From Streptomyces sp. NBC_01750 (GTDB lineage: Bacteria > Actinomycetota > Actinomycetes > Streptomycetales > Streptomycetaceae): a DNA stretch of 64,000 bases. The stretch's first letter is position 1, and each line of letters starts with the position of its first letter. A program made the translations under genes and the position numbers. The notes under the pieces were generated by a model. It had not been told where the DNA came from. It searched no databases and saw only the letters and a program-made list of their open reading frames with translations. The stretch spans positions 7,876,001 to 7,940,000 of the forward strand of contig NZ_CP109137.1 in the NCBI RefSeq assembly GCF_035918095.1. The letters run 5' to 3'. Below, one piece after another: positions 8,424-38,468 of this stretch.

Positions 8424-8444
8424 TGACAATGGTTTCCATTGCCA
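8424..8444. promoter_or_regulatory. Zur box between divergent ribosomal-paralogue operons
   Basis: A 9-3-9 palindrome with arms TGACAATGG and CCATTGCCA around TTT; the arms are complementary except at one position pair. It matches the AT-rich Zur operators known from Streptomyces (TGANAATNNNNATTNTCA type). It lies 14 bases from the rpmG start and 35 bases from the rpmB start, so one dimer or dimer pair could silence both operons when zinc is plentiful. Confidence 0.85.
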
Positions 8445-8478
8445 AAAAGAAGCCGTCTGAAGAGAGGCAGGTAACACC

Positions 8479-11339: not shown

Positions 11340-11341
11340 GA

Positions 11342-11653: not shown

Positions 11654-11755
11654 GAAATGCTCCTTCCGTCTCCGCCGAAGACGAACCTCCCTTCAAGTGT
11701 GCGCCCGTGCGGTGACCCTGGTCGAACCGGCGCGGGCTCGACGAGCGGGGTCGTG

Positions 11756-13554: not shown

Positions 13555-13565
13555 TGGTTGTCCAG

Positions 13566-14501: not shown

Positions 14502-14520
14502 GTGCGTCCTCCGAGCGAAG

Positions 14521-14540
14521 CGAAACCGAAACGGTTATCA
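14521..14540. promoter_or_regulatory. weak Zur-like site upstream of znuA
   Basis: On the minus strand the site reads TGATAACCG followed by TTTCGGTTTCG. The inner 13 bases (AACCG-TTT-CGGTT) are a perfect palindrome, but the outer positions are not complementary, so it is a poorer match than the three strong boxes in this window. The position, 20-39 bases before the znuA start, and the biology of znu operons are the main support. Confidence 0.45.
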
Positions 14541-14587
14541 CTTGGATTATCGCCCGGCCGGTTCGTGTCTTCCACCGGAGCCGGCTT

Positions 14588-16413: not shown

Positions 16414-16573
16414 CACGATAGCCGTGGAATCCGTTGCTCCGGCGGATTCGTCGCCGCTCGCCGTCGTCGGACAAACGGTCGGGCCGGCATTGCAGTTCGC
16501 TGCCCCCGCGACTGCGTGCCGCATGCCGCGAGTCTGCCGATGTCCGACCCGGATTCCGCGCCGAGCAGGGGTT

Positions 16574-16616
16574 CCGGGGCGGGCAGTGCCGTGGCTGCGA
16601 CCACTGCCCGCCCCGG
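16574..16616 (-). terminator. terminator after the rpmF-cobW operon
   Basis: A perfect 15-bp stem (CCGGGGCGGGCAGTG with its complement) with a 13-base loop, 6 bases beyond the stop codon of the COG0523 gene on the minus strand. It separates the rpmF-cobW transcript from the downstream permease pair. Confidence 0.85.
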
Positions 16617-16621
16617 AGTCT

Positions 16622-17791
16622 TCACCTCTGCGGTACGAGTTCGGGGTGCTCGTGCTCGCAGGCGTCGTCGATTCCGTAGGTGTCCCACGCGGGAAACGGA
16701 TCGACGTCCGGCAGGCTTTCGCCCTCCTTCATAAGGCAGCCGGCCAAGGCAGCCTGAAGTGGCTCGACGCGCAGGTCGGTGCCGATGAAAACCAGTTCTT
16801 GGCCCTGCGCGCTGTCCGCGTCCCGGGCGCCGGAGGGTTCGAAGCGGGCGACGGAGCCGGCCTGTGACCACAGGCCGGTCACGTTGGGCCGGTTGGCCAG
16901 CCAGAAGAAGCCCTTGGAGCGCAAGACGCGCCCGAAGGCCCCGCTGTCGAGTCCCTCGGTGACGAATGTCCACAGGCGTCCCGCGTGGAACGGCGCCTCG
17001 GAGCGGAAGACCGTGCTGGAGATGCCGTACTCCTCGGTCTCCGGCACGTGATCGCCGTTGAGTTCCATCACCCAGCCCGGGGCCTGCTGTGCACGCTCCA
17101 GGTCGAACAGACCGGTCCCAAGCACATCGCTGAGGTCCACGCGCCCGCGGGTGGCCGCCACGATCCGGGCCACCGGGTTGAGGCGGGTCAGGGCGGCCCG
17201 CAGCCGGTCGGCGCTCTCCGTGTCGACGAGGTCGAGTTTGTTGAGCACGATGACGTCGGCGAACTCGATCTGGTCCATCAGCAGGTCGCTGACGGTGCGT
17301 TCGTCGTCCTCGTACTGGTCGAGTCCCCGCTCGGCGAGCCCGTCCCCGCCTGCCAGTTCCGGCAGGAAATTGGCGGCGTCGACGACCGTGACCATGGTGT
17401 CGAGGCGGGCCAGATCGCCGAGCGTGGCGCCGTCGTCGCGAGGGAAGGCGAAGGTCGCTGCGACAGGCATCGGTTCGGAGATGCCGCTGGACTCGATGAG
17501 CAGGTAGTCGAAGCGGCCCTCGCGGGCGAGACGGTCCACCTCCTCGAGCAGGTCGTCGCGCAGGGTGCAGCAGATGCACCCATTGGTCATCTCGACCAGG
17601 CGTTCCTCGGTCCGCGACAGGACGGCCTCGCCGCCGCGCACCAGTGCGGCGTCGATGTTGATCTCGCTCATGTCGTTGACGATGACCGCGACGCGCATGC
17701 CCTCGCGGTTGCTCAACACATGGTTGAGCAGAGTGGTCTTGCCCGCCCCGAGGAAACCGGACAGGACGGTGACAGGCAGTTGTTCCGTCAT
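16622..17791 (-). CDS. COG0523 GTP-dependent zinc chaperone (CobW/ZNG1 family)
   Basis: A 389-residue protein with every COG0523 motif intact: P-loop [13 protein letters not shown] (about residues 9-21), the metal site [11 protein letters not shown] (about 70-80), Walker B-like [11 protein letters not shown], guanine motif LNKLDL (about 185), and the C-terminal domain ending in a His-containing tail ([12 protein letters not shown]). It follows rpmF by 4 bases, behind a strong Zur box, so zinc-starvation expression is likely. Such proteins use GTP to load zinc onto client metalloenzymes. Its contrast with the P-loop-less paralogue at 6801-7955 is notable. Confidence 0.92.
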
Positions 17792-18006: not shown

Positions 18007-18027
18007 TGAAAATGGATTCCATTTCTA
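18007..18027 (-). promoter_or_regulatory. Zur box upstream of rpmF-cobW
   Basis: A 9-3-9 palindrome with arms TGAAAATGG and CCATTTCTA around ATT; seven of nine arm positions are complementary. Located 41 bases before the rpmF start, where it would cover the promoter. It closely resembles the site at 8424-8444, sharing the AATGG and CCATT inner arms. Confidence 0.82.
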
Positions 18028-18041: not shown

Positions 18042-18605
18042 TCACCGAGGCATCGGAATTTCGAAGTGCACCGTGCCGACACCGGGACCGTGCTCACCGG
18101 TCGTCCGGGCGTCGAAGACCTCCTTGGCCATGCTCCGCCAGAAGGCTTCGGCTCCCTCCACATGGACATTGGTGTGCAGGTAGATGCTGTCGTAGCCCGG
18201 GGTGGTGGCGGCGAATTCGCATGCCCTGCGCACCAGGGTCCGCGCCAGACCGTGCCGCCGGTGCTCGGCTTTGACGTAGACACGGACGATCTGCGCGGTC
18301 GTGCCCGGCGGGTAGCGCTCGGCGAGCCAGCGTGGGTGTGGCGGATGTGCCGGACCGACCGATCGCACGCCGGTCGTGGCCACCACCTCGCCGCCGCGCA
18401 CCGCCACCAGCAGCAGATGCCGGGGGTTGTCCAGGTAGGTGCCCATGATGTCGACGACGTCCCGGTGCCATTCGGGTACGTAGCCGTACCCGAAATCCCG
18501 GTAGAAGGTGTCGAGCATCACGCGGCGCGCTCCTTCCACGTCGGCGACCGTGGCGGGGCGCACGGTGTACGAGGGGTGCGGTGCGTCCTGCGGGGTGTCG
18601 GTCAT
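18042..18605 (-). CDS. GNAT-family N-acetyltransferase
   Basis: A 187-residue GNAT enzyme. Motif A is visible as AQIVRVYVKAEHRRHGLARTLVRRA (residues about 104-128, with the acetyl-CoA pyrophosphate loop RRHGLA), preceded by beta strands LLLVAVRGGEVVATTGVRSV. The substrate is unknown. AAGGAG lies 7-8 bases before ATG 18605. The gene sits between rpmF and the metallophore-like operon, and its stop is 15 bases from the rpmF Zur box. Nothing in the sequence ties it to zinc, though an acetyltransferase near a metallophore cluster could be relevant. Confidence 0.85.
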   Translation of the reverse strand: MTDTPQDAPHPSYTVRPATVADVEGARRVMLDTFYRDFGYGYVPEWHRDVVDIMGTYLDNPRHLLLVAVRGGEVVATTGVRSVGPAHPPHPRWLAERYPPGTTAQIVRVYVKAEHRRHGLARTLVRRACEFAATTPGYDSIYLHTNVHVEGAEAFWRSMAKEVFDARTTGEHGPGVGTVHFEIPMPR

Positions 18606-18879: not shown

Positions 18880-18900
18880 TGACAATGAAAACGATTGTCG
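18880..18900 (+). promoter_or_regulatory. Zur box upstream of the metallophore-like operon
   Basis: A palindrome with outer arms TGACAAT and ATTGTCG separated by seven bases (GAAAACG). Six of the seven arm positions are complementary, and the TGACAAT...ATTGTC core equals the best Zur operators. It lies 90 bases upstream of the ATP-grasp gene, leaving room for a promoter and leader. No comparable site stands before the GNAT gene on the other strand. Confidence 0.85.
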
Positions 18901-18989
18901 ATACCGTGTGGCTGCGTCAAGCCGAGCAGCCCCGGACGGGTGCCGCCGACGCCTCATGAGTCCAACCCGCGTTCTGAGAAGGGGAAGCC

Positions 18990-20246
18990 GTGGCCCATCT
19001 GCTGATGGTCGAGAGCTGGGTCGGATCGATGAGCAGGCTGCTGCCAAGAGCGATCCGCGAGGGCGGGCACGAGTTCACCTTCCTCACCCGTGATCTGCAC
19101 CATTACTTGCGCTCCGCCCCTGAGGGCACCGCGCACCCGCTGCTCGCCGCGCACAACGTGCTGACCGCCGACACCAACGAAGTCGAGACGTTGCTGCCCC
19201 TGGTCGAGCGCGCCCACGGTGCGCTGGGCTTCGACGGGGTGATCACCTCCTGCGACTACTACCTCCCGACGGCCGCACGGATCGCCGGCCGCCTGGGGCT
19301 GCCGGGCCCCTCCTCTGCAGCGGTCGAGAACGCCTGCCGCAAGGACGCGACGCGCCGTGTCCTGGCCGATGCCGGAGTGCCGGGGCCCCGCTTCGCGGTC
19401 TGCGGGGACTGGGCCGAGGCCGCCGATGCGGCGCGGGAGATCGGGTACCCGCTCGTGCTCAAGCCCGTGGACCTGTGCGCCGGGATGTTCGTACGCCGTG
19501 TCGACGACGAGTCGGGGCTGGCCCGCGCCTACAGGGCGCTCGCCGACTTCCCCGTCAACGCGCGAGGCCAGCGCCGCGAGCCCGTGGTGCTGCTCGAAGA
19601 ACTGCTCCAGGGGCCGGAAGTCAGCGTCGAGACCGTGTCGTTCGCCGGAACGGCGCGGGTGGTCGGGGTGACCGACAAGAGCGTCGGTGGGGCGCCGGCC
19701 TTCATCGAGACCGGCCACATGTTCCCCGCGGCGCTCGCTGCCGCAGACGGCGAGGCGGTTGCGGAGACGGCTGTTCAGGCGCTGAAGGCCCTCGGTCTGG
19801 ACGGGGTCGTGGCGCACACCGAGATCAAGCTGACGGCCGACGGGCCACGTGTGGTCGAGGTCAACCCCCGCCCCGCCGGTAACCGCATCACCGAACTGAT
19901 CCGTCATGTGGCGGGGATCGATCTCGCCGCCGCCTGTGTCGACGTGGCCCTGGGCTGCGAACCGGACCTGCGCCGACGAGCCACCGGTCTGCGCAGCGCC
20001 GCCATCGGGTTCCTGGTGCCGGACACCGGGGGAGTGCTGGAGGCCGTCGACGGAGCCGACGACGTGCGCACGGCAGTGGACCTGTTGGAGATCCAGCTCG
20101 CCGAGCCCGGCAAGGTCGTCACGGCGGCGGGCAGCAACAACGAGTACCTGGGCCACGTCATGGTCGGTGATGCCGAGGGCCTCGGGGCTCGCGACCGGGT
20201 CGAGACGCTGCTCTCGGCGCTCTGTCCGAAGGTGGTCGGCCGATGA
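18990..20246 (+). CDS. ATP-grasp ligase of a putative metallophore pathway
   Basis: A 418-residue ATP-grasp enzyme. The fold is visible in GYPLVLKPVDLCAGMFVRRV (ATP-binding Lys at about 157), VVLLEELLQGPEVSVETV (adenine-contact region) and EIKLTADGPRVVEVNPRPAG, with Glu and Asn of the metal site at about 290. The layout is like that of L-amino acid ligases and similar carboxylate-amine ligases that form amide bonds through acyl-phosphates. It would join two small building blocks, perhaps amino acids; the substrate is unknown. First gene of a ten-gene unit behind the Zur box. The next gene overlaps it by 4 bases. Confidence 0.85.
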   Translation: MAHLLMVESWVGSMSRLLPRAIREGGHEFTFLTRDLHHYLRSAPEGTAHPLLAAHNVLTADTNEVETLLPLVERAHGALGFDGVITSCDYYLPTAARIAGRLGLPGPSSAAVENACRKDATRRVLADAGVPGPRFAVCGDWAEAADAAREIGYPLVLKPVDLCAGMFVRRVDDESGLARAYRALADFPVNARGQRREPVVLLEELLQGPEVSVETVSFAGTARVVGVTDKSVGGAPAFIETGHMFPAALAAADGEAVAETAVQALKALGLDGVVAHTEIKLTADGPRVVEVNPRPAGNRITELIRHVAGIDLAAACVDVALGCEPDLRRRATGLRSAAIGFLVPDTGGVLEAVDGADDVRTAVDLLEIQLAEPGKVVTAAGSNNEYLGHVMVGDAEGLGARDRVETLLSALCPKVVGR

Positions 20247-21094
20247 CCGCCATCACCCACACGAACATCACCGCGGCCTCGTACGACGAACTCGTCGACC
20301 GTGTGCTCCGCGGTGGCTTCGGACCCGACCCGAGGACTGAGCGGATCGCCGTGGCGTTCACCACGCGCCAGGCTGTACGGCATGCCGGGCGCAGCGGCGG
20401 CTACCGCAACGAAGTGCTGAGCCTGCGCCTGGCCGAGGCCGTGGGCTCGTGCGCGGTCGAGCCCGGTGGGCTCCCCGACAGCGCGGTCGACGACTGTGTC
20501 GGCGCGGACATCGCCCGGCTGCTGGCGCACGATCTGCTGCCTGTACGGGTGGCCGCACTGGACGCCTACCTGATGCACGTGCTTCCCCACGGTTCCGCGA
20601 GCGGCGCACGGCCGTGTCCGCTCCCCGCCGGGAGCTCGCTGGAGAAGTCCCGGGCCAGGGCCAAGGCCGTCACCGGTCTGCTCGATGTCCGCCCAGGGCG
20701 CACTGTCCTCGTCGTCGGCGTGGTCAACTCGCTGCTGGAGGCCCTACGGGCGCGTGGGCTTGCGTACATACCCTGCGACCTCAAAGGCGGCACAACGGAG
20801 TGGGGCGAGCCGGTGCGCACCGACGCACTCGCGGAACTGGAACGCTGTGACGCCGTCCTCGCCTCGGGCATGACACTCGGCAACGGCAGCTTCGAGCCGT
20901 TGCGCGAGCACGCACTGCGGCACGGCAAGCCGCTGGTGATGTTCGCCCAGACCGGCAGCGCGGTGCTGCCGCGCCTCATCGGCGCCGGAGTCAGTGCGGT
21001 GTCCGCCGAGCCGTATCCCTTCTTCTGGCTCGACGGCGGGCCCGGAATTGTCCACCGCTACGGCGGCAGCGAGTGCTCCGGAGCCGCCCTGTGA
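20243..21094 (+). CDS. DUF4213/DUF364 Rossmann-like protein (putative heavy-metal chelation)
   Basis: A 283-residue protein. The N-terminal part (about 1-100) fits DUF4213; the C-terminal part (about 115-275) fits DUF364, with GRTVLVVGVVNSLLEALRAR resembling a Rossmann strand and LERCDAVLASGMTLGNGSFE typical of the family. Pfam describes this pair as putative heavy-metal chelation; biochemical evidence is slight. It lies between the ATP-grasp and PLP-enzyme genes with 4-bp overlaps on both sides, so it is made with the biosynthetic enzymes. It may be a biosynthetic enzyme of unknown chemistry, or handle the metal complex in the cytoplasm. Confidence 0.75.
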   Translation: MTAITHTNITAASYDELVDRVLRGGFGPDPRTERIAVAFTTRQAVRHAGRSGGYRNEVLSLRLAEAVGSCAVEPGGLPDSAVDDCVGADIARLLAHDLLPVRVAALDAYLMHVLPHGSASGARPCPLPAGSSLEKSRARAKAVTGLLDVRPGRTVLVVGVVNSLLEALRARGLAYIPCDLKGGTTEWGEPVRTDALAELERCDAVLASGMTLGNGSFEPLREHALRHGKPLVMFAQTGSAVLPRLIGAGVSAVSAEPYPFFWLDGGPGIVHRYGGSECSGAAL

Positions 21095-22182
21095 CCACGG
21101 CCGTCCTCAGCCCCGCGGGCAACCGCGAACTGCTCGCCCTGCTAGGCCGTACCCCGCTCGCCCGCATCACCGTCGACCTGCCCTGCCCGCAGCCCGGCTT
21201 CTGGGCCAAGCTGGAAGGTCTCGGCGTCGGCGGCATGAAGGCGCGGGCGGCCGTCTCCATGCTGCTCGGGGCCAAGGAGCGCGGCGAACTGCGGCCCGGC
21301 GCCCCGGTGGTGGAGTCCACCTCCGGAACGCTCGGCATCGGGCTGGCCTTCGCTGGTCAGGCCCTGGGGCATCCGATCGTGCTGGTCGGCGACACAGAGC
21401 TGGAGCCCTCGATGCGACAGCTGCTGCGCACATACGGGGCCCGGCTGGAGCTGGTCGACCGCCCAGCGACCGAGGGCGGATGGCAGGCCGCCCGGCTGGC
21501 CCGGTTGCGGGATCTGCTGTCGACGCTGCCGGACGCCTACTGGCCCGACCAGTACAACAACCCCGACAACATCATCGGTTACGCCTCCCTCGCTGCCGAG
21601 CTCACGGCTCAGTTGGACCACCTCGACGTACTGGTGTGCAGCGTCGGCACCGGCGGCCACAGCGCCGGCGTGGTCGGACCGCTGCGGCGGCACTGGCCCG
21701 GGCTCCGGCTGATCGGCGTGGACGCCACCGGCTCGACGATCTTCGGCCAGCCCGCCAGGCCCCGCCTGATGCGCGGACTGGGCAGCAGCATCCATCCACG
21801 CAACGTCGCCTACGACGCCTTCGACGAGGTCCATTGGGTCGGCCCGGCCGAGGCCGCGGACGCCTGCCGGAAGCTCGCTGTCGGCAACTTCGTCAGCGGC
21901 GGCTGGAGCACCGGAGCCGTAGCGCTCGTGGCGGCCTGGGCCGCTCGCGTCCACCCGGGAGCCGTCGTCGCCACCATCTTCCCCGACGGACCGCATCGCT
22001 ATCTCGGCAGCGTCTACGACGACAACTTCGCCGCCGCCCATGGGCTCGACCTGGCCACCGCGGCAAGGCGCCCCGTCGAGATCCCGCATCCGCGGGCCGT
22101 GGAGGCCACCGGCTGGGCCCGGTGCCACGCCGTCACCGACCCGCTGCACAGCCGAACCCCACGCTGGGAAGAGAGCCCGTGA
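21091..22182 (+). CDS. PLP-dependent cysteine-synthase-family enzyme
   Basis: A 363-residue fold-type II PLP enzyme. The PLP Lys lies in GVGGMKARAA (about residue 49; compare SVKDR in cysteine synthase). The substrate loop is ESTSGTLGIGLAFAGQALGH, the PLP phosphate loop is VGTGGHSAGVVG, and QYNNPDNIIGY is present. SbnA and related enzymes of this family make 2,3-diaminopropionate precursors for siderophores by beta-replacement; that type of reaction is inferred here. The start is GTG 21091, overlapping the preceding stop (GTGA). It likely supplies an amino-acid building block for the ATP-grasp ligase. Confidence 0.85.
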   Translation: MTTAVLSPAGNRELLALLGRTPLARITVDLPCPQPGFWAKLEGLGVGGMKARAAVSMLLGAKERGELRPGAPVVESTSGTLGIGLAFAGQALGHPIVLVGDTELEPSMRQLLRTYGARLELVDRPATEGGWQAARLARLRDLLSTLPDAYWPDQYNNPDNIIGYASLAAELTAQLDHLDVLVCSVGTGGHSAGVVGPLRRHWPGLRLIGVDATGSTIFGQPARPRLMRGLGSSIHPRNVAYDAFDEVHWVGPAEAADACRKLAVGNFVSGGWSTGAVALVAAWAARVHPGAVVATIFPDGPHRYLGSVYDDNFAAAHGLDLATAARRPVEIPHPRAVEATGWARCHAVTDPLHSRTPRWEESP

Positions 22183-23228
22183 AGGTCAGTCAGCGCACCG
22201 TGCGTCTCCAACTCACCGAGCCGCTGCGCATATCCCGCTCGACGATGGCGGCCCGCGACGCCGTCTGGCTCTTCATCGAACACGAAGGCCGGCTCGGCCG
22301 CGGAGAGGCCGTCACCAGCGTGTACTACGGCCTCGACGCCGACACCCTCGGACGACTGCTGCACACGGAATCCCAGTGGCTGGCCCGCTTCGCCGAACCG
22401 GAGAGCGCCCTGGTCGCCCTGCGCAACGGAGGCCGGGAGAGCACCCCGCCCGCCGTGATCGCGGCCGTCGAGTCCGCGCTGCTCGATCTCGTGGGCAAGC
22501 GCGCAGGCATCCCGGTCCACGAACTGCTGGGTACCTCCGCCCGGCCGTCCGCCGCGACTGCCCGCACCATCGGCATCACCTCGCCGAGGCAGGCCGAAGC
22601 CCAGGCCGCCCGCCTGGTACGGGACGGTTTCTCGGTCCTCAAGATCAAGGCCGGTGCCCCTGAACCCGAGGACGACCTGAAGCGTCTACAGGCCGTGCGG
22701 GCCGCGGCTCCCCACGCTCGGCTGCTCCTGGACCCCAATGGAGCCTGGACCGTTGCCACGACGGAACGACTCCTGCCCCGCCTCGCGGAGCTGGGAATCG
22801 AGGCCGTGGAGCAGCCGATCGCACCCGGCGACCCCGAGGCGCTGGCAAACCTCGCCGAACGCTCGCCGCTGCCAGTCATCGCCGACGAGGACGCGGTCGG
22901 TTACGAGGACGCCCGCCGTCTCGCCGGGCGGGTGCAGGGCATCAACGTCAAGCTCGCCAAGTGCGGCGGCGTCACCGCGGCCCTGCGGATCGCCGAACTG
23001 ATCGCCGGCACCGGTACCGAGCTGATGCTCGGCTGTCTGACCGCCAGCACGCTCGGCATCGCCCCCGCCGTGCATCTCGCCGACCGCGCCCGGTGGATCG
23101 ACCTCGACGGGCATCTACTGCTCGCCCACGACCCGTGGACCGGCATCGGCGGAACCGACGGACACATCCGGACAAGCCCGCGCCCGGGTCTCGGCGTGCA
23201 CCCGCGCACCGAGGAGAACCGCGAGTGA
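22179..23228 (+). CDS. enolase-superfamily epimerase (dipeptide epimerase-like)
   Basis: A 349-residue mandelate racemase/enolase-superfamily enzyme. The KxK pair is in VLKIKAG (about 155-157), the metal ligands are in DPNGAW (Asp, about 185), VEQPIAPG (Glu, about 211) and ADEDAVG (Asp, about 235), and the second catalytic Lys is in KLAKCGG (about 258). This layout with a late Lys fits L-Ala-D/L-Glu and other dipeptide epimerases rather than mandelate racemase. In the operon it would epimerise a residue of the amide made by the ATP-grasp ligase. GTGA overlaps on both sides. Confidence 0.85.
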   Translation: MKVSQRTVRLQLTEPLRISRSTMAARDAVWLFIEHEGRLGRGEAVTSVYYGLDADTLGRLLHTESQWLARFAEPESALVALRNGGRESTPPAVIAAVESALLDLVGKRAGIPVHELLGTSARPSAATARTIGITSPRQAEAQAARLVRDGFSVLKIKAGAPEPEDDLKRLQAVRAAAPHARLLLDPNGAWTVATTERLLPRLAELGIEAVEQPIAPGDPEALANLAERSPLPVIADEDAVGYEDARRLAGRVQGINVKLAKCGGVTAALRIAELIAGTGTELMLGCLTASTLGIAPAVHLADRARWIDLDGHLLLAHDPWTGIGGTDGHIRTSPRPGLGVHPRTEENRE

Positions 23229-24487
23229 AGACGTGGCACGAGATACGCGGCTTCCCCCTCGCGATACGGCTCCTCCTGGTCAACCAGCTCGGCGTCAACA
23301 CCGGCTTCTATCTGCTCATCCCCTACCTCGCCGTGCACCTGAGCGAGGACCTTGGGCTGTCGGCCGCTGTCGTCGGCATCGTGCTCGGCGTGCGCAACCT
23401 GAGCCAGCAGGGCCTGTTCCTCATCGGCGGATCGGCATCGGACCGGCTGGGAGCGCGCGGAGTCATCATCGCCGGATGCGCGCTGCGCACCGTCGGCTTC
23501 GGGCTCTTCGCACTGGGCGACGGACTGACGGTTCTGCTGGCCGCCTCCGTGCTCAGCGGACTGGCCGGGGCGCTGTTCAACCCTGCCGTACGCGCGTATC
23601 TCGCCCTGGAGGCGGGGGAGCGCAAGGCCGAGGCGTTCGCCCTGTTCAACGTCTTCGCGACCACCGGCGCCCTGATAGGGCCGCTGCTCGGCAGCGCCCT
23701 GCTGCTGGTCGACTTCCGCGCCTCCGCACTCACCGCGGCCGGGATCTTCGCGGTGCTCACGGTCGCCCAGGCCATGGTGCTTCCGGCACGCGAGGTCACA
23801 CCGTCCGCGAACAGCGTCCTCGGGGACTGGCGAGAGGTGATCGGCAACCGCAGCTTCCTGGCGTTCGCCCTGGCCATGGTCGGCATGTTCACCCTGGAGA
23901 ACCAGCTGTATCTGCTGCTGCCGGCCGGCGCGCGCCGGGCCACCGGCTGGGATGGCGCGGCAGGCATCGTCTTCCTCGTCGGCACCCTCACCAACCTCTC
24001 GCTGCAACTGCGCATCACGCGGGCGCTGAAGAGCCGGGGCAGCCGGGCGAGATGGATCAGCGCGGGGCTCACGCTGATGGGGCTGGCCTTCCTACCGCCG
24101 ATGGCGGTGGCGGGGGCCGGGACAGCGCACGGCGGCGTCGGCGACGCGGTGCTCGGCGCGCTGCCTGTCCTGGCCGGGGCGCTGCTGCTCTACCTGGGCG
24201 TCATGATCGCCCAGCCCTTCGTGATGGAGCTGATCCCCCGCTTCGGCCGCCCAGAGCTCACCGGCACGTACTTCGGGCTGTTCTACGTGGTCTCGGGCAT
24301 CGCGGCGGCCCTGGGCAACACGGTCGTCGGCTGGTCCATGGACGCCGGTGAGCGCGCGGGGGCCCAGTGGCTGCCCTGGGCGTGCTGCCTGGCCTTCGGA
24401 CTCGCCTCCGCCACCGGCGTCGCCTGGCTCCACCGCCGGCGAGTGCTTCCCGCCCAAGTGGCGCCCCCCGTACCGGTGCCGGCATGA
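23225..24487 (+). CDS. MFS exporter, probable metallophore efflux
   Basis: A 420-residue major facilitator protein with about twelve hydrophobic segments. The motif after TM2 appears as GGSASDRLGARGVIIAGCAL (GxxxDRxGxR, motif A). TM5 includes FATTGALIGPLLGSALLL, the motif C-like pattern of drug:H+ antiporters, which supports export. The start is GTG 23225 within a GTGA overlap with the epimerase gene. The location between biosynthetic and uptake genes suggests it exports the finished ligand. The methyltransferase gene begins 12 bases downstream. Confidence 0.85.
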   Translation: MKTWHEIRGFPLAIRLLLVNQLGVNTGFYLLIPYLAVHLSEDLGLSAAVVGIVLGVRNLSQQGLFLIGGSASDRLGARGVIIAGCALRTVGFGLFALGDGLTVLLAASVLSGLAGALFNPAVRAYLALEAGERKAEAFALFNVFATTGALIGPLLGSALLLVDFRASALTAAGIFAVLTVAQAMVLPAREVTPSANSVLGDWREVIGNRSFLAFALAMVGMFTLENQLYLLLPAGARRATGWDGAAGIVFLVGTLTNLSLQLRITRALKSRGSRARWISAGLTLMGLAFLPPMAVAGAGTAHGGVGDAVLGALPVLAGALLLYLGVMIAQPFVMELIPRFGRPELTGTYFGLFYVVSGIAAALGNTVVGWSMDAGERAGAQWLPWACCLAFGLASATGVAWLHRRRVLPAQVAPPVPVPA

Positions 24488-24498
24488 GGAGACCGAGA

Positions 24499-25290
24499 AT
24501 GAGAAACGCAAACCTGCTGACCGACAACCCGGCCCTGTACGAGGCCCGTTTCCCCGACGAGGCACGGGTGGCGGGGCGCTGGGCGGAGGACTGTCTGCGG
24601 CGGTACGGGGCCGGTCCGCGGGTTCTGGACATCGGCTGCGGCACCGGCCGTGACGCCGCGTATCTGCACGCGGCCGGTCGCACGGTCGTCGGCGCGGACC
24701 TGTCCGAGGCGATGCTGGAGCACGCGCGCGTGCACTACCCCGGTCCGGAGTACGTCCTGACAGACCTGCGCGGATTCGACCTCGCCGAACGGTCCTTCGA
24801 CGCCGTGGTGTGCCTGGACAGTGCCTTGCTGTACTGCCACACCAACGAGGAGCTCGACGGGTTCCTGGGCTCGTGCCGCACTTCACTGGCACCCGGCGGG
24901 TTGCTTGTTGCGGAGATGCGCAACGGGGCCTTCTTCCTTGGTCGTACGGATCTCCTCGACCGCCCGTCCGTCAACGGCTTCACCTGGCAGGGCACCGCCT
25001 ACCGGTCCACCACCACCTTGCGCGTGGACCGGGCCGCGCAATTGCTGCGCCGCACGCGGGTGTGGACCTCCGACGACGGTTCGCCACCGGTCGAGCAGCG
25101 CTCCGCTTGGCGGCTGCTCTTCCCCCAGGAACTTCGCCACCTCCTCGCCGTTCACGGCTTCGAGGTGCTCGCCCTGTACGACGGGCCCGGTCCTCGTACG
25201 GAGCCGCCGTGGCGTGAGGGCGACCTGCCGGCCGCTACGGCCGATGCCGACCGGCTCCATCTTGTCGCCCGCCTCACGCGCGCCCGCTGA
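24499..25290 (+). CDS. class I SAM-dependent methyltransferase
   Basis: A 263-residue enzyme with the SAM motif VLDIGCGTGRDAAYLHAAG (about 42-60), acidic residue at the end of strand 2 (VVGADLSEAML), and post-I/II regions FDAVVCLDSALLYC and LAPGGLLVAEM. GAGGAG sits 8 bases before ATG 24499; an upstream in-frame ATG at 24484 overlaps the MFS stop but has no ribosome-binding site. It may methylate the product or a precursor. An aminobutyrate-transferase role as in nicotianamine-like synthases is not suggested by the motifs. It precedes the ABC uptake genes by 57 bases. Confidence 0.85.
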   Translation: MRNANLLTDNPALYEARFPDEARVAGRWAEDCLRRYGAGPRVLDIGCGTGRDAAYLHAAGRTVVGADLSEAMLEHARVHYPGPEYVLTDLRGFDLAERSFDAVVCLDSALLYCHTNEELDGFLGSCRTSLAPGGLLVAEMRNGAFFLGRTDLLDRPSVNGFTWQGTAYRSTTTLRVDRAAQLLRRTRVWTSDDGSPPVEQRSAWRLLFPQELRHLLAVHGFEVLALYDGPGPRTEPPWREGDLPAATADADRLHLVARLTRAR

Positions 25291-25347
25291 ACCCCACATT
25301 CCGTCGCCCCCCGCGCCAACATCCGCTCGCACAGCAAGGAAACCCTC

Positions 25348-26940
25348 ATGAACGACGTCCCCGTCAACGACTCCCGCTTCCCCGGCCTGCGCCGCCGGGG
25401 CTTCCTCGCCGCAGCCGGAGGCGCGGCCGGGCTCGGCGCGCTCGCCCTCGCCGGCTGCGCCGGCTCCGGCACCGCCGCTGACCCCGCCAAGGCAGACGGC
25501 AAGCCCAAGCGCGGCGGACGGTTGCGCGCCGCCTTCGCAGGCGGTGGTGCGAGCGAGACCCTCGACCCGCACTTGGCCAACCTCTTCGCTGATGCCGCCC
25601 GCGCCAAGGCCCTCTTCGACAAGCTCGCCGACTACGGGCCGGACCTCTCCGCGCAGCCCCGGCTCGCCTCGTCCTGGGAGCCGAACGCGGGACTGGACCG
25701 CTGGAAGGTCACCCTGCGCAAGGCCGCCTTCCACGACGGCAAGCCGGTGACCGCCCAGGACGTCCTCTACAGCTACCGCCGCATCGCCAACCCGGCGAAG
25801 GCGTTCCGGGCCAAGGCGTCGCTGGAGCCCATCGACCTGAAGGCCAGCAGAGCCCTCGACGCTCGGACCATCGAGTTCGTCCTCAAGCGCCCGACCGCCG
25901 AATTCCCCAACGTGCTCGCGGCGTTCGGCGCGTACATCGTCCCCGAGGGTGCTCAGGACTTCGACAAGAAGCCGGTCGGCAGCGGCCCGTTCCGCTTCGT
26001 CTCTTTCGCGCCCGGCAAGTCGGCCGTCTTCAAGCGCAACGACGCCTACTGGGACGGCGCCCCCCACCTCGACGAGCTGGAGTTCGTCGTCGCCAACGAG
26101 GAATCGGCGCGCGCCAACGCCCTGCTCGGCGGGCAGGTCGAGTACGCCCACGAGCTCAACCCCGCCACCGCCCGCGCCCACGAGAACAAGGGGCAGATCC
26201 AGATCGTCCGGCTCCGCAACAGCGCCATGCAGGGCTTCGTCATGAAGACCGACCGGCCTCCGTTCGACGACAGGCGGGTCCGCGAGGCGTTCTTCCTGAT
26301 CGCTGACCGCAAGGAACTGGTCGACGGCGCCCTGTCCGGCGCCGGAGAGATCGGCAACGACCTGTTTGGCAAGGGCTACGAGTACTACGCCGGCAGCCTG
26401 CCGCAGCGTGAACAGGACCTCGACCGGGCCCGCAAGCTGCTGAAGGAGGCCGCGGCCGACAAGCTGAAGGTCACTCTCGACACCTCCCCGGTCGCCTCCG
26501 GCTTCACTGAGGCCGCGGCGATCTTCCGCGACCAGGCGGCCAAGGCCGGAGTGAGAATCGAGATCAAGACCGGCAGCAAGGACAGCTACTGGAAGGACAT
26601 TCTCGACTCCGGGACCCTGGCGTCCTACCGCTCCGGCGCCATGCCCATCGAGTCCCACATCTCCCAGCGCCTGCTCACCGGGTCGACCACCAACGCAACT
26701 CACTGGCGCCACAAGGACTTCGACGCCCTGTACCAGCAGGCCCAGTCCACCAAGGACAAGAAGGACCGCGCCGCCGTCTACGAGCGCATGCAGCGCCGCC
26801 TGCACACCGAGGGCGGCTTCTTGATCTGGGGCTTCGCCGACTGGATCCTCGGCACCGCCCGGGGCGTCCGGGGCGTCGAGCAGAAGGCGCCCGCCAACTC
26901 CCTCGACTGGGCGCGCTTCGACAAGGTCTGGCTGGCGTGA
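25348..26940 (+). CDS. Tat-exported lipoprotein, SBP family 5 (DppA/NikA-like)
   Basis: A 530-residue extracytoplasmic binding protein. Residues 15-40 hold a Tat signal (RRRGFLAAAGG, hydrophobic stretch) and lipobox LAGC. Family 5 features are GGRLRAAFAGG...TLDPHLAN, DVLYSYRRI, GSGPFRFVSFAPG and VREAFFLIADRKELV. This family binds peptides, nickel chelates and metallophores (for example CntA). With the neighbouring permeases and ATPase it forms a complete importer, here likely for the zinc-loaded ligand. The next gene overlaps its stop by 4 bases. Confidence 0.9.
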   Translation: MNDVPVNDSRFPGLRRRGFLAAAGGAAGLGALALAGCAGSGTAADPAKADGKPKRGGRLRAAFAGGGASETLDPHLANLFADAARAKALFDKLADYGPDLSAQPRLASSWEPNAGLDRWKVTLRKAAFHDGKPVTAQDVLYSYRRIANPAKAFRAKASLEPIDLKASRALDARTIEFVLKRPTAEFPNVLAAFGAYIVPEGAQDFDKKPVGSGPFRFVSFAPGKSAVFKRNDAYWDGAPHLDELEFVVANEESARANALLGGQVEYAHELNPATARAHENKGQIQIVRLRNSAMQGFVMKTDRPPFDDRRVREAFFLIADRKELVDGALSGAGEIGNDLFGKGYEYYAGSLPQREQDLDRARKLLKEAAADKLKVTLDTSPVASGFTEAAAIFRDQAAKAGVRIEIKTGSKDSYWKDILDSGTLASYRSGAMPIESHISQRLLTGSTTNATHWRHKDFDALYQQAQSTKDKKDRAAVYERMQRRLHTEGGFLIWGFADWILGTARGVRGVEQKAPANSLDWARFDKVWLA

Positions 26941-27890
26941 TCGGATTCCGGTCCTGGGTCGCCCGGCGGCTGCTGCTCGGCGTGGCGCAGACGGCAGCCG
27001 TCGTGCTGCTCGTCTTCGCCCTCACCGAGGCGCTGCCGGGCGACGCCGCCGTGGCACTCGCCGGAGACCAGCCCGACCCGGAGCGGATCGCGGCCATCCG
27101 CGAGGCGATGCACCTGGACCAGCCCGCCCACGAACGCCTGGCGCACTGGGCGGCCGGGCTGCTGCACGGCGACTTCGGCACGTCCCTGGCCTCGGGGCGG
27201 CCCGTCAGCACGTACATCGAGGGCGGATTCGGGCCGACCGTGCTGCTCGCCGTGCTCACGATGGTGCTGCTGGTACCGGCCGGGGTCGGCCTCGGTGTGC
27301 TGTCCGCCCGCCACGAGGGGCGGCTCGTGGACCGGCTCGTCAGTTCGGTGACGCTGGGCGTGTACGCGGTCCCGGAGTTCGCCTTCGGCGTGCTGCTGGT
27401 CACTGTGTTCGCCCTACGTCTTGGCTGGCTGCCGCCGACCGCCGTCGGATACGGCACCGATCTGCTCGCCCACCCCGCGGCGCTGGTCCTCCCCGTGCTC
27501 GTCCTGCTGTCGCGGCCGGTGTGCTCACTGGCGCGCCTGGTACGGGCAGGCATGATCGACGCGCTGGCCTCGCCGTATGTCGCCCAGGCCCGCCGCTACG
27601 GAATCTCCGGCGCCCGCATCCGTTACACGCATGCACTGCCCAACGCCATTGCGCCTGCCGCCCAGCAACTTGCCCGCACGGTCGACTGGTTGCTGTGCGG
27701 AGTGATCGTCGTGGAGGCGCTGTACGTGATCCCCGGGCTCGGAACGGTGCTGATGAATGCTGTCGCGGAAAGGGACGTTCCCGTGGTGCAGGGCCTCGCG
27801 GTGATCTTCGGGCTGACCGCTGTCGTCCTCAATCTGGGCGCCGACCTGGTCGCCCACCGCTTCGCGCCCCGGGCGGGGGTGGCCGCATGA
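26937..27890 (+). CDS. ABC permease, DppB/OppB type
   Basis: A 317-residue membrane permease. The N-terminal segment (LLLGVAQTAAVVLLVFALTE) and LPGDAAVALAG match the DppB pattern, and the EAA loop reads VAQARRYGISGARIRYTHALPN near residue 215. Six membrane segments are seen. The start is GTG 26937 overlapping the SBP stop; the next permease overlaps its stop (ATGA). It pairs with the DppC-type gene product to form the channel. Confidence 0.9.
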   Translation: MIGFRSWVARRLLLGVAQTAAVVLLVFALTEALPGDAAVALAGDQPDPERIAAIREAMHLDQPAHERLAHWAAGLLHGDFGTSLASGRPVSTYIEGGFGPTVLLAVLTMVLLVPAGVGLGVLSARHEGRLVDRLVSSVTLGVYAVPEFAFGVLLVTVFALRLGWLPPTAVGYGTDLLAHPAALVLPVLVLLSRPVCSLARLVRAGMIDALASPYVAQARRYGISGARIRYTHALPNAIAPAAQQLARTVDWLLCGVIVVEALYVIPGLGTVLMNAVAERDVPVVQGLAVIFGLTAVVLNLGADLVAHRFAPRAGVAA

Positions 27891-28672
27891 GGCACCGCGC
27901 CATGCTCGGTGCGCTGATCGTCGGCGTACCGCTCGCCCTCGCCCTGCTCGGACCGCTGTTCGCCGGAGCCCCTGGCCCACGGGCCGCCTCCTTCACCCTC
28001 GGCGGCGAACACTGGCTCGGCACCGACTTCGTCGGACGGGACGTCTGGCGGCACGTGCTGCTCGGCGGACGGTCCGTGGTCCTCGTGGCCCTGACCGCGA
28101 CTGCCCTGGCCTACCTGGTGGCCGTGCCGCTCGGACTCATCAGCGCGCTCACCCATCGGACGTGGCTCGAAGAGCTGCTGATGCGGCCCGTGGACGTGCT
28201 GCTCGCCGTGCCGTCGCTGCTGCTGATCCTGCTGGTGGCCGCCGTCTTCTCGCCGGGATCGGTGGGCCTCGCACTGCTGGTGGCCCTGGTCAACTTCCCG
28301 GACGCCGCGCGGATCGTCCGCGCGGCCGCGGCCGAAGCGGCCTCACGCCCGGCCGTAGAAGCACTGCGCATGCAGGGCGAGACCTGGTGGCGCATGGCCA
28401 TCGGCTATGTCGGCAGGTCGATCGCGCGCACACTCGCCGCGGACGCGGGCGTACGGCTCACAGGCGCGCTCTACCTGGTGGCCACTGCGGCGTTCCTCGG
28501 CGTGGGAGTCGCGCCGGACGCCTCCGACTGGGCGGTGATGGTGGACCGCAACCGTACGGGCCTGTTCGTCCAGCCCTGGGCCGTGGTCGTCCCGGCCCTG
28601 CTGATCGTCGCCCTGACCATGGGCGGCAACCTGCTCTTCGACGCCGTACTGGAAAAGAGGAAACGCACGTGA
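27887..28672 (+). CDS. ABC permease, DppC/OppC type
   Basis: A 261-residue permease with the DppC features EHWLGTDFVGRDVWRHVLLGGR near residues 45-66, six membrane segments, and an EAA-like loop VEALRMQGETWWRMAIGYVG near 160. It is shorter than typical DppC, with a reduced N-terminus before TM1. It overlaps both neighbours by 4 bases, so synthesis of the whole importer is coupled. Confidence 0.9.
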   Translation: MRHRAMLGALIVGVPLALALLGPLFAGAPGPRAASFTLGGEHWLGTDFVGRDVWRHVLLGGRSVVLVALTATALAYLVAVPLGLISALTHRTWLEELLMRPVDVLLAVPSLLLILLVAAVFSPGSVGLALLVALVNFPDAARIVRAAAAEAASRPAVEALRMQGETWWRMAIGYVGRSIARTLAADAGVRLTGALYLVATAAFLGVGVAPDASDWAVMVDRNRTGLFVQPWAVVVPALLIVALTMGGNLLFDAVLEKRKRT

Positions 28673-30207
28673 CCGCGGTCGCTGAGATCAAGGACCTACG
28701 CGTCGAGATCGACGGCCGCGCGATCGTCGACGGCGTCAGCTTTCAGGTCCGGCCGGGGAAGGTCACCGCGCTCGTCGGCGCGTCCGGCAGCGGCAAGACG
28801 ACCACGGGCCTCGCGCTGCTGGGCGAGTACCCGGCGGGTGCCCGCGTGACCGGCGACGTACGCGTATCCAACGGCCTCGTCGGATACGTACCCCAGCACC
28901 CCGGCGCCGTTCTCAACCCCGTACGCCGGGTCGGCGCACTGCTGCGGGACATCGCCCGCGACCAGGTGCGGAGCCTGCCCAGGCGCGAGCGCCGGGCCGC
29001 CGCCCGGACGCGCATCCTGCACGCCCTCTCCGCCGCACAGCTCCCGGAGGGCGAGTCCCTGCTTCGGCGCTATCCGCACCAGCTCTCGGGCGGCCAGCAG
29101 CAGCGCGCCGTCCTGGCACAGGCACTGCTGCTCGGCGCCAGGGTGGTGGTCGCGGACGAACCGACCACGGGGCAGGACGTGCTGACGAAGCGGCGCATCG
29201 TCGACCAGCTGGCTGCGGTCGCCCGGCAGGGCATCGCAGTGGTCCTGCTGAGCCATGACCTGGACGTCATCCGGGCCCTGGCCGATGAGGTTCTGGTCAT
29301 GCGTGCCGGCCGAGTGGTGGAGGCAGCTTCCGCGGAGCAACTGTGGCTTGCACCGCAGCATCCCTGGACCGCCGAACTCCTGGCGGCAGACGAGAAGACG
29401 GGTGACACCCCGCCGACGCGCGAAGGACAGACGGCACTCCAGGTACGTGGCCTCACCGCCCGGCACCGCGACGGTACCGCTAGCAGGGAGGTGTTGCGCA
29501 TCCCCGAACTCACCCTCCGCGCCGGCGAGTGCCTGGCCGTCGTCGGCCGCTCCGGCAGCGGCAAGACAACCCTCGCCCGCTGCCTCGCCGGACTCCACCG
29601 GGACTACGAAGGCGAAGTCCTCCTCGACAGCACCCCGCTCCCGCGCAGCCTGCGCGCCCGGACCCGTGAACAACTGGCCGCGGTCCAGTACGTCTTCCAG
29701 GACGCCAACGCCGCGTTCGACGAACACCGACCGGTCCTGGACCAGGTGGCGCGCACGGCGGTGCGGCTGCGAGGAGCAGACCCGCGAGAGGCTCTTGCCG
29801 AGGCCCTGAACACCCTGACCGGACTCGGCCTCACGGAGGAGCTGGTACGCCGCAGACCCGGCCGACTGTCCGGCGGCGAACTCCAACGGACCGCGCTCGC
29901 CCGGGCCCTGCTCGCCCGGCCGCGGGTGCTGATCTGCGACGAGATCACCTCCGGCCTCGACACAGTCACCCGACGTGGCCTCCTGGACACGCTCGCCGTC
30001 CTGCTGCGAGACCGACCCGAACTGGCCCTGGTCCTGATCACCCACGACCTCGACACCGCAGCGACTGCCGCCCGGATCGCCGTACTGGACGCCGGTGAGC
30101 TCATCGAGCAGGGACCGGCACAGCAAGTGCTCACAGCGCCGCGGCACCGGTTCACCGCTTCACTCGTGGCAGGCTCGGCCCGCCTGGCAGCGGATGTGCG
30201 TCCCTGA
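28669..30207 (+). CDS. fused ABC ATPase (DppD-DppF tandem)
   Basis: A 512-residue protein with two complete ATPase domains. First: Walker A GASGSGKTT (about 37-45), signature LSGGQQQR (about 143), Walker B VVVADEP, H-loop LLSHDLDV. Second: Walker A GRSGSGKTT (about 287-295), Q-loop YVFQDANAAF, signature LSGGELQR (about 402), Walker B VLICDEI, H-loop LITHDLDT. In most Dpp/Opp systems these are two proteins. The second Walker B ends in DEI rather than DEP, which is harmless. It completes the importer and is the last gene of the operon, 5 bases from the convergent YcgQ-like gene. Confidence 0.9.
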   Translation: MTAVAEIKDLRVEIDGRAIVDGVSFQVRPGKVTALVGASGSGKTTTGLALLGEYPAGARVTGDVRVSNGLVGYVPQHPGAVLNPVRRVGALLRDIARDQVRSLPRRERRAAARTRILHALSAAQLPEGESLLRRYPHQLSGGQQQRAVLAQALLLGARVVVADEPTTGQDVLTKRRIVDQLAAVARQGIAVVLLSHDLDVIRALADEVLVMRAGRVVEAASAEQLWLAPQHPWTAELLAADEKTGDTPPTREGQTALQVRGLTARHRDGTASREVLRIPELTLRAGECLAVVGRSGSGKTTLARCLAGLHRDYEGEVLLDSTPLPRSLRARTREQLAAVQYVFQDANAAFDEHRPVLDQVARTAVRLRGADPREALAEALNTLTGLGLTEELVRRRPGRLSGGELQRTALARALLARPRVLICDEITSGLDTVTRRGLLDTLAVLLRDRPELALVLITHDLDTAATAARIAVLDAGELIEQGPAQQVLTAPRHRFTASLVAGSARLAADVRP

Positions 30208-30212: not shown

Positions 30213-30947
30213 TCAGTCTCCGTACTGGTTGTGTGGGGCCGGGACCGGTCTGGCCTGGCTGATGTTGATGAAGGGGATGACGCCGTCGTTGACGGGGTCT
30301 TTGGTCTGCTTGCTGGTGTAGGTGCCGGTGACTTCGAGCCACGCGTCGGGTTGCATGACGGGGGGAACCTGTCCGGTCAGGCCGACCTTGATGGGCTGGG
30401 CGTCGGCAGCACAGCAGTTGAGGACCATGCGGGTCAGGTAGGGCGCGCCGTTGCGGTCGAGGGTGATGAAACCAGTGATCTTGATCTGCCGATCGTCGAG
30501 TGAGCGTCCGTGGTCGTAAACGGCTCGGCCGGCGTAGTCGGCGACGCTGAGCTTGAGGGGGTCGCCGGCGGGGAGGGCTGAGAAGCCCCAGGGCTTTTGC
30601 AGGGCCGTGCCGGTACGCATCGCGCTGTAGGAGCCCAGTGCGGGTGGGGCGACCAGGATCAGAGCGAACAGTGGCAGGACCAGGAGCCAGGAGATTCGTG
30701 GTTCGTGGTGGGCGTGGCCGTGCTCGGCCTGGTGCTCATGCTCGGGCTGGTGCTCCTGGGTCGCTCGTGGCCGTCGTATTTCGTACCAGACAGTGGCAAT
30801 GGCGGCGGCGATCAGGACGATGCCGGCCACGATCAGCAACGGGCGCAACCCGGCCTTGACGTAGCGCAGATAGAGGTCGGTGAAGCCGGCGCGCAGCACC
30901 GCCACTCCGACGAGGAACAGCACGGCTGCTTGGGCCTGCCGGTTCAC
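30213..30947 (-). CDS. TIGR03943/DUF1980 permease subunit, second copy
   Basis: A 244-residue paralogue of the protein at 14588-15346: two N-terminal membrane segments, a very His/Glu-rich cytoplasmic loop (EHQPEHEHQAEHGHAHHEPR, about 70-90), a third segment ending APPALGSYSAM, and the conserved NCCAADAQPI motif. The His run is longer than in the first copy. The GTG start overlaps the permease stop. It converges with the ABC ATPase gene across a 5-bp gap, so the two operons share a terminator region without any obvious hairpin. Confidence 0.87.
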   Translation of the reverse strand: MNRQAQAAVLFLVGVAVLRAGFTDLYLRYVKAGLRPLLIVAGIVLIAAAIATVWYEIRRPRATQEHQPEHEHQAEHGHAHHEPRISWLLVLPLFALILVAPPALGSYSAMRTGTALQKPWGFSALPAGDPLKLSVADYAGRAVYDHGRSLDDRQIKITGFITLDRNGAPYLTRMVLNCCAADAQPIKVGLTGQVPPVMQPDAWLEVTGTYTSKQTKDPVNDGVIPFINISQARPVPAPHNQYGD

Positions 30948-31954
30948 AGCAGCACCGCCCCGACCAGGGCCGATATCAGGACGGCCACAGTGAAGGTGGC
31001 AGGAGCGAACCGCAGCGCGAACCCGCGGCCGAACGTGGCGGCCTGCATGGCGAACAGTTTCAGGTCGATCATCGGTCCGACGACGAGGAAGGCCAGCCGG
31101 GCGGTGAGCGAGAACTGGGACAGGGACGCGGCCACGAACGCGTCGGCCTCGGAGCAGATCGACAACAGCACCGCAAGGATCGCCAGGGCGAGGACCGACA
31201 CCACGGGGTTGTTGGCCGCGGCATGCAGCCAACCCGCCGGTACCACGACTTTGAGGGTGGCCGCGGCCATCGCGCCGACGACGAGGAAGCCGCCGGCGTG
31301 CATCACGTCGTGCCGTACGGATCCCCAGAACGCCGCCCCCTTGGTGAGGCTGTCGAACGACGGGTGGTCCGGCAGGCGCAGCCAGTCGGTGCGGCCCAGC
31401 CGCTGCCACAACCAGCCCATTGCGCACGCCACGAGCAGACTCGCCACGAACCGGGCGAGGACCATCTCGGGGTTGCCGGGAAACGCTACGGCGGTCGCGG
31501 TCAGCACGATCGGGTTGATCGCCGGGGCGGACAGCAGGAAAGCGAACGCCGCCGCGGGGGTGACGCCGCGGCGCACCAGTGCCCCGGCCACCGGCACGGA
31601 GGCGCACTCGCAGCCGGGCAGGACCGCCCCGGCCATCCCGGAGATCGGCACCGCCAGGGCGGGCTGTCTCGGCAATGCGCGGGCGAAAAACGAGGGTGGG
31701 ACGAACACCGCGATGATCGCCGACAGCAGCACGCCGAGGACGAGGAAGGGCAGGGCCTGGACGAACACCGCGACGAACACGGTCGTCCAGCTCTGCATCA
31801 CCGGCGCGGACAACGCCCGGCGGATCGGCCCCTCCAGCATGACCACGAGGAGCAGCAACATGGTGAGGACGAGGGATGAGTTGAACTGCCAACCCTCCGG
31901 ATCGTCCGCCTCGCGATCGTCAACCCGGGTCGGGGCCGGCTTGGTGGTGGTCAC
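30944..31954 (-). CDS. UPF0718/YraQ-type permease, second copy
   Basis: A 336-residue paralogue of the protein at 15343-16413. It has the same signature, VLPGCECASVPVAGALVRRG, then PAAAFAFLLSAPAINPIVL, and about eight membrane segments. The start is GTG 31954 with GGAGG about 9-10 bases upstream; the open frame continues to 32404 but that part looks like non-coding sequence. No Zur box is visible in the 150 bases upstream. Presence next to the metallophore-like operon fits a zinc role, but this is inference. Confidence 0.87.
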   Translation of the reverse strand: MTTTKPAPTRVDDREADDPEGWQFNSSLVLTMLLLLVVMLEGPIRRALSAPVMQSWTTVFVAVFVQALPFLVLGVLLSAIIAVFVPPSFFARALPRQPALAVPISGMAGAVLPGCECASVPVAGALVRRGVTPAAAFAFLLSAPAINPIVLTATAVAFPGNPEMVLARFVASLLVACAMGWLWQRLGRTDWLRLPDHPSFDSLTKGAAFWGSVRHDVMHAGGFLVVGAMAAATLKVVVPAGWLHAAANNPVVSVLALAILAVLLSICSEADAFVAASLSQFSLTARLAFLVVGPMIDLKLFAMQAATFGRGFALRFAPATFTVAVLISALVGAVLL

Positions 31955-38112: not shown

Positions 38113-38468
38113 CACCGGTTCTCCAGATCTCATACGCAAGATTCAGATCGCCCCTACCGGCTCAAGAAGTCGCATCCAGGGAAGGCGGGGTTCCGAAGCA
38201 AGCATGTGACACACGTCACGTGACGGGGCGGCCGACTGGCGCCGTCGTTGCGGGCACTTCATCGACGACCATGCGGATGGGTGGTCTACAGGAACCGGGC
38301 CGCCGCGGAATGCGCGTGCAGGCGACGCCTCCCTTCCATCAGTCGGTTGCAGAGCACCAGCGGTTCCCGTCTTTCCGACCCGACCGAAGCACGGGGTTGC
38401 ACGGGGCGCCCACCGGCCGCCGACCACGCTCCAGCATGTGGCGACGGCAGGCGTCTTCCCTCACCGCA

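Follow-up and report, generated by a model that had tools for sequence, protein, structure and literature searches.

A conserved, Zur-boxed operon of Streptomyces sp. NBC_01750 as a candidate zinc metallophore system independent of non-ribosomal peptide synthetases

Ten coupled genes behind a Zur-like box

We analysed a 64 kb window (the whole stretch under study) of the 8.9 Mb contig NZ_CP109137.1 of Streptomyces sp. NBC_01750, which holds a putative operon for the synthesis, export and re-import of a zinc-binding metallophore (zincophore). Ten tightly coupled open reading frames (ORFs) occupy 18990-30207 of the plus strand behind a Zur-like palindrome at 18880-18900. Neighbouring genes overlap by 4 bases at 7 of the 9 junctions (8 of 9 if gene 6 starts at 24484), genes 6 and 7 are set 57 bases apart, and 5 bases separate the stop of gene 10 from the stop of a convergent gene at 30213.

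18880..18900, plus strand: Zur-like box TGACAATGAAAACGATTGTCG, matching 15/16 fixed consensus positions, ~90 bases before the start of gene 1
18990..20246, plus strand: gene 1, ATP-grasp amide ligase of the L-amino acid ligase type (PF13535, PF18603 LAL_C2, PDB 3vot)
20243..21094, plus strand: gene 2, DUF364 (PF04016) protein (Pfam 28.3 bits, cut-off 23)
21091..22182, plus strand: gene 3, SbnA-like pyridoxal phosphate (PLP) beta-substitution enzyme (PALP; TIGR03945; PDB SbnA)
22179..23228, plus strand: gene 4, enolase-superfamily protein resembling dipeptide epimerases (MR_MLE N and C; active-site residues)
23225..24487, plus strand: gene 5, major facilitator superfamily (MFS) transporter, MdtH-like below cut-off (Pfam MFS_1, NCBIfam)
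24499..25290 (start possibly 24484), plus strand: gene 6, class I S-adenosylmethionine (SAM) methyltransferase (Pfam; PDB matches)
25348..26940, plus strand: gene 7, SBP_bac_5 binding protein with a lipoprotein signal seen by eye (PF00496, 266 bits)
26937..27890, plus strand: gene 8, DppB/NikB-type permease (BPD_transp_1; NCBIfam)
27887..28672, plus strand: gene 9, DppC/NikC-type permease (BPD_transp_1; NCBIfam)
28669..30207, plus strand: gene 10, fused double ATPase of the DppD-DppF type (two ABC_tran stretches in one protein)

An earlier reading, made from the DNA letters and translations only (hereafter the sequence-only reading), had described ten consecutive plus-strand genes, mostly overlapping by 4 bases, behind a very good Zur palindrome, and both the layout and the palindrome were found as described. 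Its Dpp-type importer with a fused double ATPase corresponded to the SBP_bac_5 protein, the two BPD_transp_1 permeases and the two ABC_tran stretches, and Pfam and PDB matches agreed with the labels ATP-grasp ligase, epimerase-like enzyme and SAM methyltransferase. Two labels stood in part. Gene 2 matched DUF364 but had no Pfam match to DUF4213 at E 0.001, and the "cysteine-synthase-like" gene 3 is a PALP protein whose nearest profile is SbnA, so that C-N chemistry is likelier than C-S. No NRPS (non-ribosomal peptide synthetase), polyketide synthase, IucA/IucC, nicotianamine synthase or opine dehydrogenase was among the listed Pfam and NCBIfam hits for the operon proteins, which agrees with the earlier statement that machinery of these kinds is absent and that the operon is not coelibactin-like.

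Box scores out of 16 refer throughout to a Zur-type consensus fitted by eye rather than derived from the literature. With up to 3 mismatches allowed, the pattern occurred at 4 distinct sites in the whole 9 Mb genome, 3 of them in the window, and a reversed control gave 0 hits. Among random sequences of like first-order composition, 3/1500 (0.2%) scored at least 12/16, and with the reversed consensus 0/100 upstream regions attained this score. Chance occurrence of the box was ruled out by the genome-wide and random-sequence controls. Of the six matches to the Fur family in the genome, five are strong; the Zur-like one at G000:C1:2958490 had as its best PDB match 3mwm (E 7.5e-75), which we take to be S. 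coelicolor Zur. Both marks of a putative Zur regulon, a Zur-type promoter palindrome and a Zur-like protein, are thus present, and the box predicts that the operon is probably expressed under zinc shortage.

Distribution and partial relatives of the operon

Gene 2 was present in 27 of 150 sampled family genomes (this genome included). In 20 of the 27 it reached at least 67% identity, and the identical 20 genomes carry gene 1 at 66% or more; the remaining 7 have gene 2 at 41-47% and no gene 1 match at E 1e-40. Across the class, a sample that shares some genomes with the family sample gave gene 2 in 30 of 394 genomes, including two from other families at 62%. The closest named relatives of gene 2 belong to Streptomyces and Wenjunlia. 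Loci were collected from the family sample (19), from other families (2) and from a scan of named genomes with gene 2 in which the best 80 of 288 relatives were kept, giving 101 loci, 100 of them distinct (L022 and L090 being the same locus).

Genes 1-3 were present and co-directional at 100/100 distinct loci, and the complete ten-gene set was found at 91/100. Of the 9 incomplete loci, 7 are truncated by the end of a contig; the other 2, L039 and L114, truly lack parts. In-frame 4-base start/stop overlaps recurred at junctions 1 to 4 in 95/100, 100/100, 92/99 and 55/96 loci, respectively, and a Zur-like box of at least 12/16 was detected in 97/100 assessable upstream regions (own included). 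The co-occurrence of the gene families with Zur boxes, a check suggested by the sequence-only reading, was therefore observed for both the ten genes and the box. Among 392 congeners (this genome included), by the cut-offs used, the ATP-grasp gene was found in 98, about a quarter of them, and gene 7 in 95; genes 1 and 7 occurred together in 92, gene 7 alone in 3 and gene 1 alone in 6. The operon was also located on plasmids of Streptomyces angustmyceticus. On the mobilizable 926 kb plasmid pRZP2 of Rhodococcus sp. ZPP (L195), a ten-gene operon at 42-58% identity has a 12/16 box and adjoins a DUF1490 gene; its genes carry only generic names in the plasmid record. Among the open-licence PMC papers listed by literature searches, none was recognised as an account of the operon.

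Importer-only loci were read in the three congeners with gene 7 alone and in one genome of the family sample. In all four (L180, L182, L183 and L184) the importer stands behind a box of 13-15/16 and genes 1-4 are not nearby. The MFS gene is retained in L180 and L184, and L184 adds a methyltransferase-like gene at 43%. A short ORF in L183 matches residues 7-74 of the MFS protein and then residues 232-263 of the methyltransferase; this fused relic is a deletion scar, left when synthesis was lost and uptake kept. Some relatives thus appear to have discarded the genes for synthesis and retained those for uptake. Importer-only cassettes behind a box fit the prediction of a shared metallophore that can be stolen, and they are the strongest support for a diffusible product. 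Together with the conserved gene order and box, they favour the zincophore that had been proposed as the likely product. The earlier label "exporter" for gene 5 agrees with the MFS_1 match, but the two cassettes that keep this gene suggest that its protein may serve recycling besides secretion.

The gene set first described is incomplete in one respect: the ten genes recur together, but an adjacent acetyltransferase gene, a candidate eleventh part, had been left out.

18042..18605, minus strand: GNAT acetyltransferase (PF00583), divergent from the box

This gene recurs at 41/100 distinct loci, divergent in 39 and co-directional directly after gene 10 in 2.

A proposed route to a retained serine-amino acid conjugate

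Gene 1 contains both the ATP-grasp and the L-amino acid ligase C-terminal domain (PF18603 LAL_C2, 44.8 bits, cut-off 29.4), with L-amino acid ligase 3vot as its best PDB match (E 4.4e-30). Dipeptide epimerases are marked by two catalytic lysines, D/E/D metal ligands and a DxD motif. In gene 4 the KxK motif, the other catalytic lysine, the metal ligands and DxD are kept in 96-98/100 distinct sequences, the exceptions being 2-3 gapped sequences and single deviations at two metal ligands; its best PDB matches include dipeptide epimerases, and NCBIfam epimerase models score below cut-off. A ligase and a dipeptide epimerase acting in turn would make a coherent combination, with order and substrates as we propose them. 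These two genes belong to the families of bacilysin-type L-amino acid ligases and L-Ala-D/L-Glu type epimerases, which are known from antibiotics and peptide catabolism and are not known to be zinc-controlled. The best PDB matches of gene 6 include N-methyltransferases. Gene 2 was present at every core locus read. A PDB sequence search gave no match for it or for the GNAT protein; its AlphaFold2 model (pLDDT 72) has a low-confidence though conserved stretch at 37-76, and fold matches were weak, led by PLP enzymes (TM ~0.33), with the DUF364 entry 3npg sixth (TM 0.38-0.50).

The best PDB matches of gene 3 are SbnA structures 5d87 and 5d84 (E 2e-43 and 4e-43), followed by CmnB, and the PLP lysine is invariant across all 101 distinct orthologues aligned. 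Arg132, Tyr152 and Ser185 are taken as functional residues of SbnA. As diagnostic residues they were rejected, since they failed to separate gene 3 from the cysteine-synthase-like proteins of the genome: the Arg and Tyr common to gene 3 and SbnA also occur in the cysteine-synthase-like L060, and the Tyr in others. Within the operon, Pfam and NCBIfam searches revealed no SbnB partner. Three SbnA and three SbnB genes score above cut-off elsewhere in the genome, so SbnB could be supplied in trans, a type of case discussed in PMC9248904. The product of SbnA is a serine-glutamate conjugate that SbnB cleaves, and the fungal aspergillomarasmine synthase condenses O-phosphoserine with aspartate with no free diaminopropionate (both PMC12751119). 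The latter reaction is a precedent for a conjugate that is retained.

We hypothesize that, when zinc is low, Zur would come off the box at 18880, and that the ten genes would be transcribed as one unit. Gene 3 may couple the amino group of an amino acid to an activated serine, either O-phospho- or O-acetylserine. As the operon has no SbnB to cleave it, the N-linked diaminopropionate conjugate would be retained, following the logic of aspergillomarasmine, as an aminopolycarboxylate chelating core. Gene 1 would then attach a further amino acid through an amide bond, gene 4 would invert one centre of the dipeptide-like product, and gene 6 would cap it by methylation. Gene 5 could export the product, or re-export it after zinc release, and the importer made of the binding protein, DppBC and DppDF would return the zinc chelate.

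Aspergillomarasmine A (toxin A) resembles the proposed product in reaction logic, in that a cysteine-synthase-like enzyme keeps a serine-amino acid conjugate and the product would prefer zinc; aspergillomarasmine binds zinc with a Kd of 0.2 nM (PMC8319579). In favour of the metallophore reading, NikA, of the binding-protein family of gene 7, binds both its zinc and nickel complexes (PMC11091072). EppA, of the same superfamily, calls for caution, as it binds free aminopolycarboxylates and not metal-EDTA (ethylenediaminetetraacetic acid) complexes (PMC7312458). The fungal cluster differs: it consists of two genes (PMC12751119) and has no ligase, epimerase or re-import. The operon shares its general plan with the systems for staphylopine and pseudopaline, small amino-acid chelators that are made, exported and re-imported by an Opp/Nik-type system. 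Unlike these opine zincophores, it gave no hits resembling nicotianamine synthase or opine dehydrogenase and has PLP and ATP-grasp enzymes instead. Siderophores made by NRPS-independent siderophore (NIS) synthetases differ as well, since the operon has no IucA/IucC synthetase. Coelibactin is an NRPS product, and the operon differs from it in having no NRPS domain. The cluster for coelibactin is a Zur-controlled metallophore cluster of Streptomyces coelicolor (PMC6103462).

Weighing the metallophore reading against its rivals

Collectively, the metallophore reading of the operon is supported. We consider it quite probable that the ten genes form a complete zinc-starvation metallophore system with synthesis, export and re-import, in which we infer the action of Zur, the metal, the product and the order of steps. 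A conserved, Zur-boxed, NRPS-independent system is likely real, with an enzyme set new within the scope searched. A bolder proposal is put forward tentatively, at somewhat less than even confidence: an undescribed, widespread class of zincophore, in which a retained serine-amino acid conjugate is the base of an epimerised and methylated pseudo-dipeptide that has export and import of its own, and in which sister genomes show a transition from producer to cheater. To our knowledge, bacteria have few known zincophores; the ones we can name from soil actinomycetes are one NRPS product and ethylenediaminedisuccinic acid (EDDS). Mining rules keyed to NRPS, NIS or opine genes would probably miss the system. 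With its ligase gene in a quarter of the genus as sampled, such a small-molecule system would change the view of zinc competition in soil, it might yield a biodegradable zinc-selective chelator, and its producers and importer-only relatives would make public-goods theory testable on a metal other than iron.

Several observations weigh against this interpretation. The strongest argument against a strict unit of synthesis plus uptake comes from core-only loci: L185, L186 and L188, among four of the six genomes with gene 1 alone that were read (L185-L188; G649 and G802 were left out), hold genes 1-4 without adjacent transporters; the three genomes with such a core, G564, G663 and G832, have no gene 7 match at E 1e-180. 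The fourth locus, L187, has genes 1 and 7 both fragmented. The locus of G126 (L039) has neither exporter nor importer, and L114 has no intact importer. The claim that biosynthesis, export and re-import form one operon is backed by the joint occurrence of importer and ligase in 92/392 congeners but is qualified by the three genomes with the core alone. The upstream regions of L036, L078 (from another family) and L149 score below 12, that of L153 is not assessable, and the conservation counts are not independent trials because the loci are related. As for gene 3, its best NCBIfam model, SbnA (TIGR03945), scores 237 bits, below the cut-off of 350; in a tree that carries a long-branch warning it stands apart from the true SbnA proteins and cysteine synthases of the genome; its orthologues read TSGT where those proteins read TSGN or SSGN; and since the shared Arg and Tyr also occur in cysteine-synthase-like proteins, they are no proof of nitrogen chemistry. 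Finally, SBP_bac_5 importers carry plain peptides too.

An unlikely alternative is that the product is a metallophore whose physiological metal is equally nickel, cobalt or copper, with Zur only timing expression. The nearest NCBIfam models of the importer are of the nickel type: nikA for gene 7, far below cut-off, and nikD and CntF/CntD for gene 10, below their cut-offs. Aspergillomarasmine binds nickel and cobalt as well (PMC11091072). Against another metal, the box and the zinc island around the operon (see below) point to zinc.

We judge it about equally improbable that the operon belongs, in divergent form, to the aminopolycarboxylic acid metallophores, EDDS and ethylenediaminesuccinic acid hydroxyarginine (EDHA). 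EDDS is Zur-controlled and was discovered through Zur boxes (PMC4993170, PMC9252823), which favours kinship. Both would follow a non-NRPS, non-NIS route under metal-responsive control, and an SbnA-like enzyme (gene 3 scoring below the SbnA cut-off) with the same type of importer is also seen at L058 (G000:C1:7795000-7814000), ~68 kb before the window. The nine genes of L058 span 11 kb and encode a Dpp-type importer (SBP_bac_5 binding protein, fused double ATPase), a MATE exporter, proteins resembling SbnA and SbnB, a LysA-like decarboxylase and a VioC-like hydroxylase (209 bits against a VioC cut-off of 419; the model of the guanitoxin-pathway hydroxylase gives 253). It appears EDHA-like and would fit the 11 kb EDHA cluster of S. 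scabiei (PMC8914351). Two iron-type boxes (17/19 and 16/19) but no Zur-like box of at least 11/16 were found there. The operon, in contrast, has neither the SbnB/OCD-like dehydrogenase nor the LysA-like decarboxylase, a criterion drawn from L058, EDDS being compared only through this EDHA-like locus; the operon differs further in its ligase, epimerase, DUF364 protein and methyltransferase. These data suggest two parallel amino-acid chelator systems in one genome, one with iron-type and one with zinc-type boxes, the latter without the SbnB-like and decarboxylase steps.

Less likely still is a product that stays in the cell, as a zinc-buffering ligand or a dipeptide for internal use, with the transporters performing separate peptide scavenging under a shared promoter. 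The transporter-free core in G564, G663 and G832 fits such a product, with boxes of at least 13/16 in two of the three (core-only loci L186 and L188; none in L185); the strong co-occurrence of importer and core, and importer cassettes that stand behind a box without the core, argue for the metallophore system. The least likely rival is an antimetabolite antibiotic, an ATP-grasp dipeptide of the bacilysin/dapdiamide kind released against competitors in zinc starvation. In its favour, gene 1 is distantly related to BacD and dapdiamide synthase, export would run through the MFS protein, and the GNAT protein could protect the producer; a dedicated import system under the same box and core-less importer cassettes fit nutrition better.

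The operon lies in a dense zinc island (9153-17791 and 30213-32404) with a P-type ATPase, ZnuABC, a COG0523 GTPase and two ArsP-type permease/DUF1980 pairs. Two further Zur-like boxes were found in the window.

18007..18027, minus strand: second Zur-like box, 12/16, ahead of a minus-strand run of COG0523, ArsP permease, DUF1980 and ZnuABC genes
8424..8444, minus strand: third Zur-like box, 14/16, between ribosomal protein gene groups

The third box, within 6503-9020, separates the genes for S18 and L31 (minus strand) and a COG0523-like protein from those for L28 and S14 (plus strand). The fourth genome-wide site lies at G000:C1:5816998-5817018, where inspection of 3 kb by eye revealed no recognisable zinc gene. 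Further along the window (35618-41384) are a heavy-metal P-type ATPase carrying an HMA domain and another ABC set, which includes an ABC-3 permease and a weak ZnuA match.

A second type of DUF364 cluster (L041-L047, L080-L084, L087, L181 and L197) combines DUF364, a divergent PALP protein, an MFS protein and a weakly HemK-like methyltransferase, with a GHMP kinase in some and either an FecCD or a Dpp importer. Zur-like boxes lie near several of these clusters, and the type extends to other families and to a plasmid of Tsukamurella.

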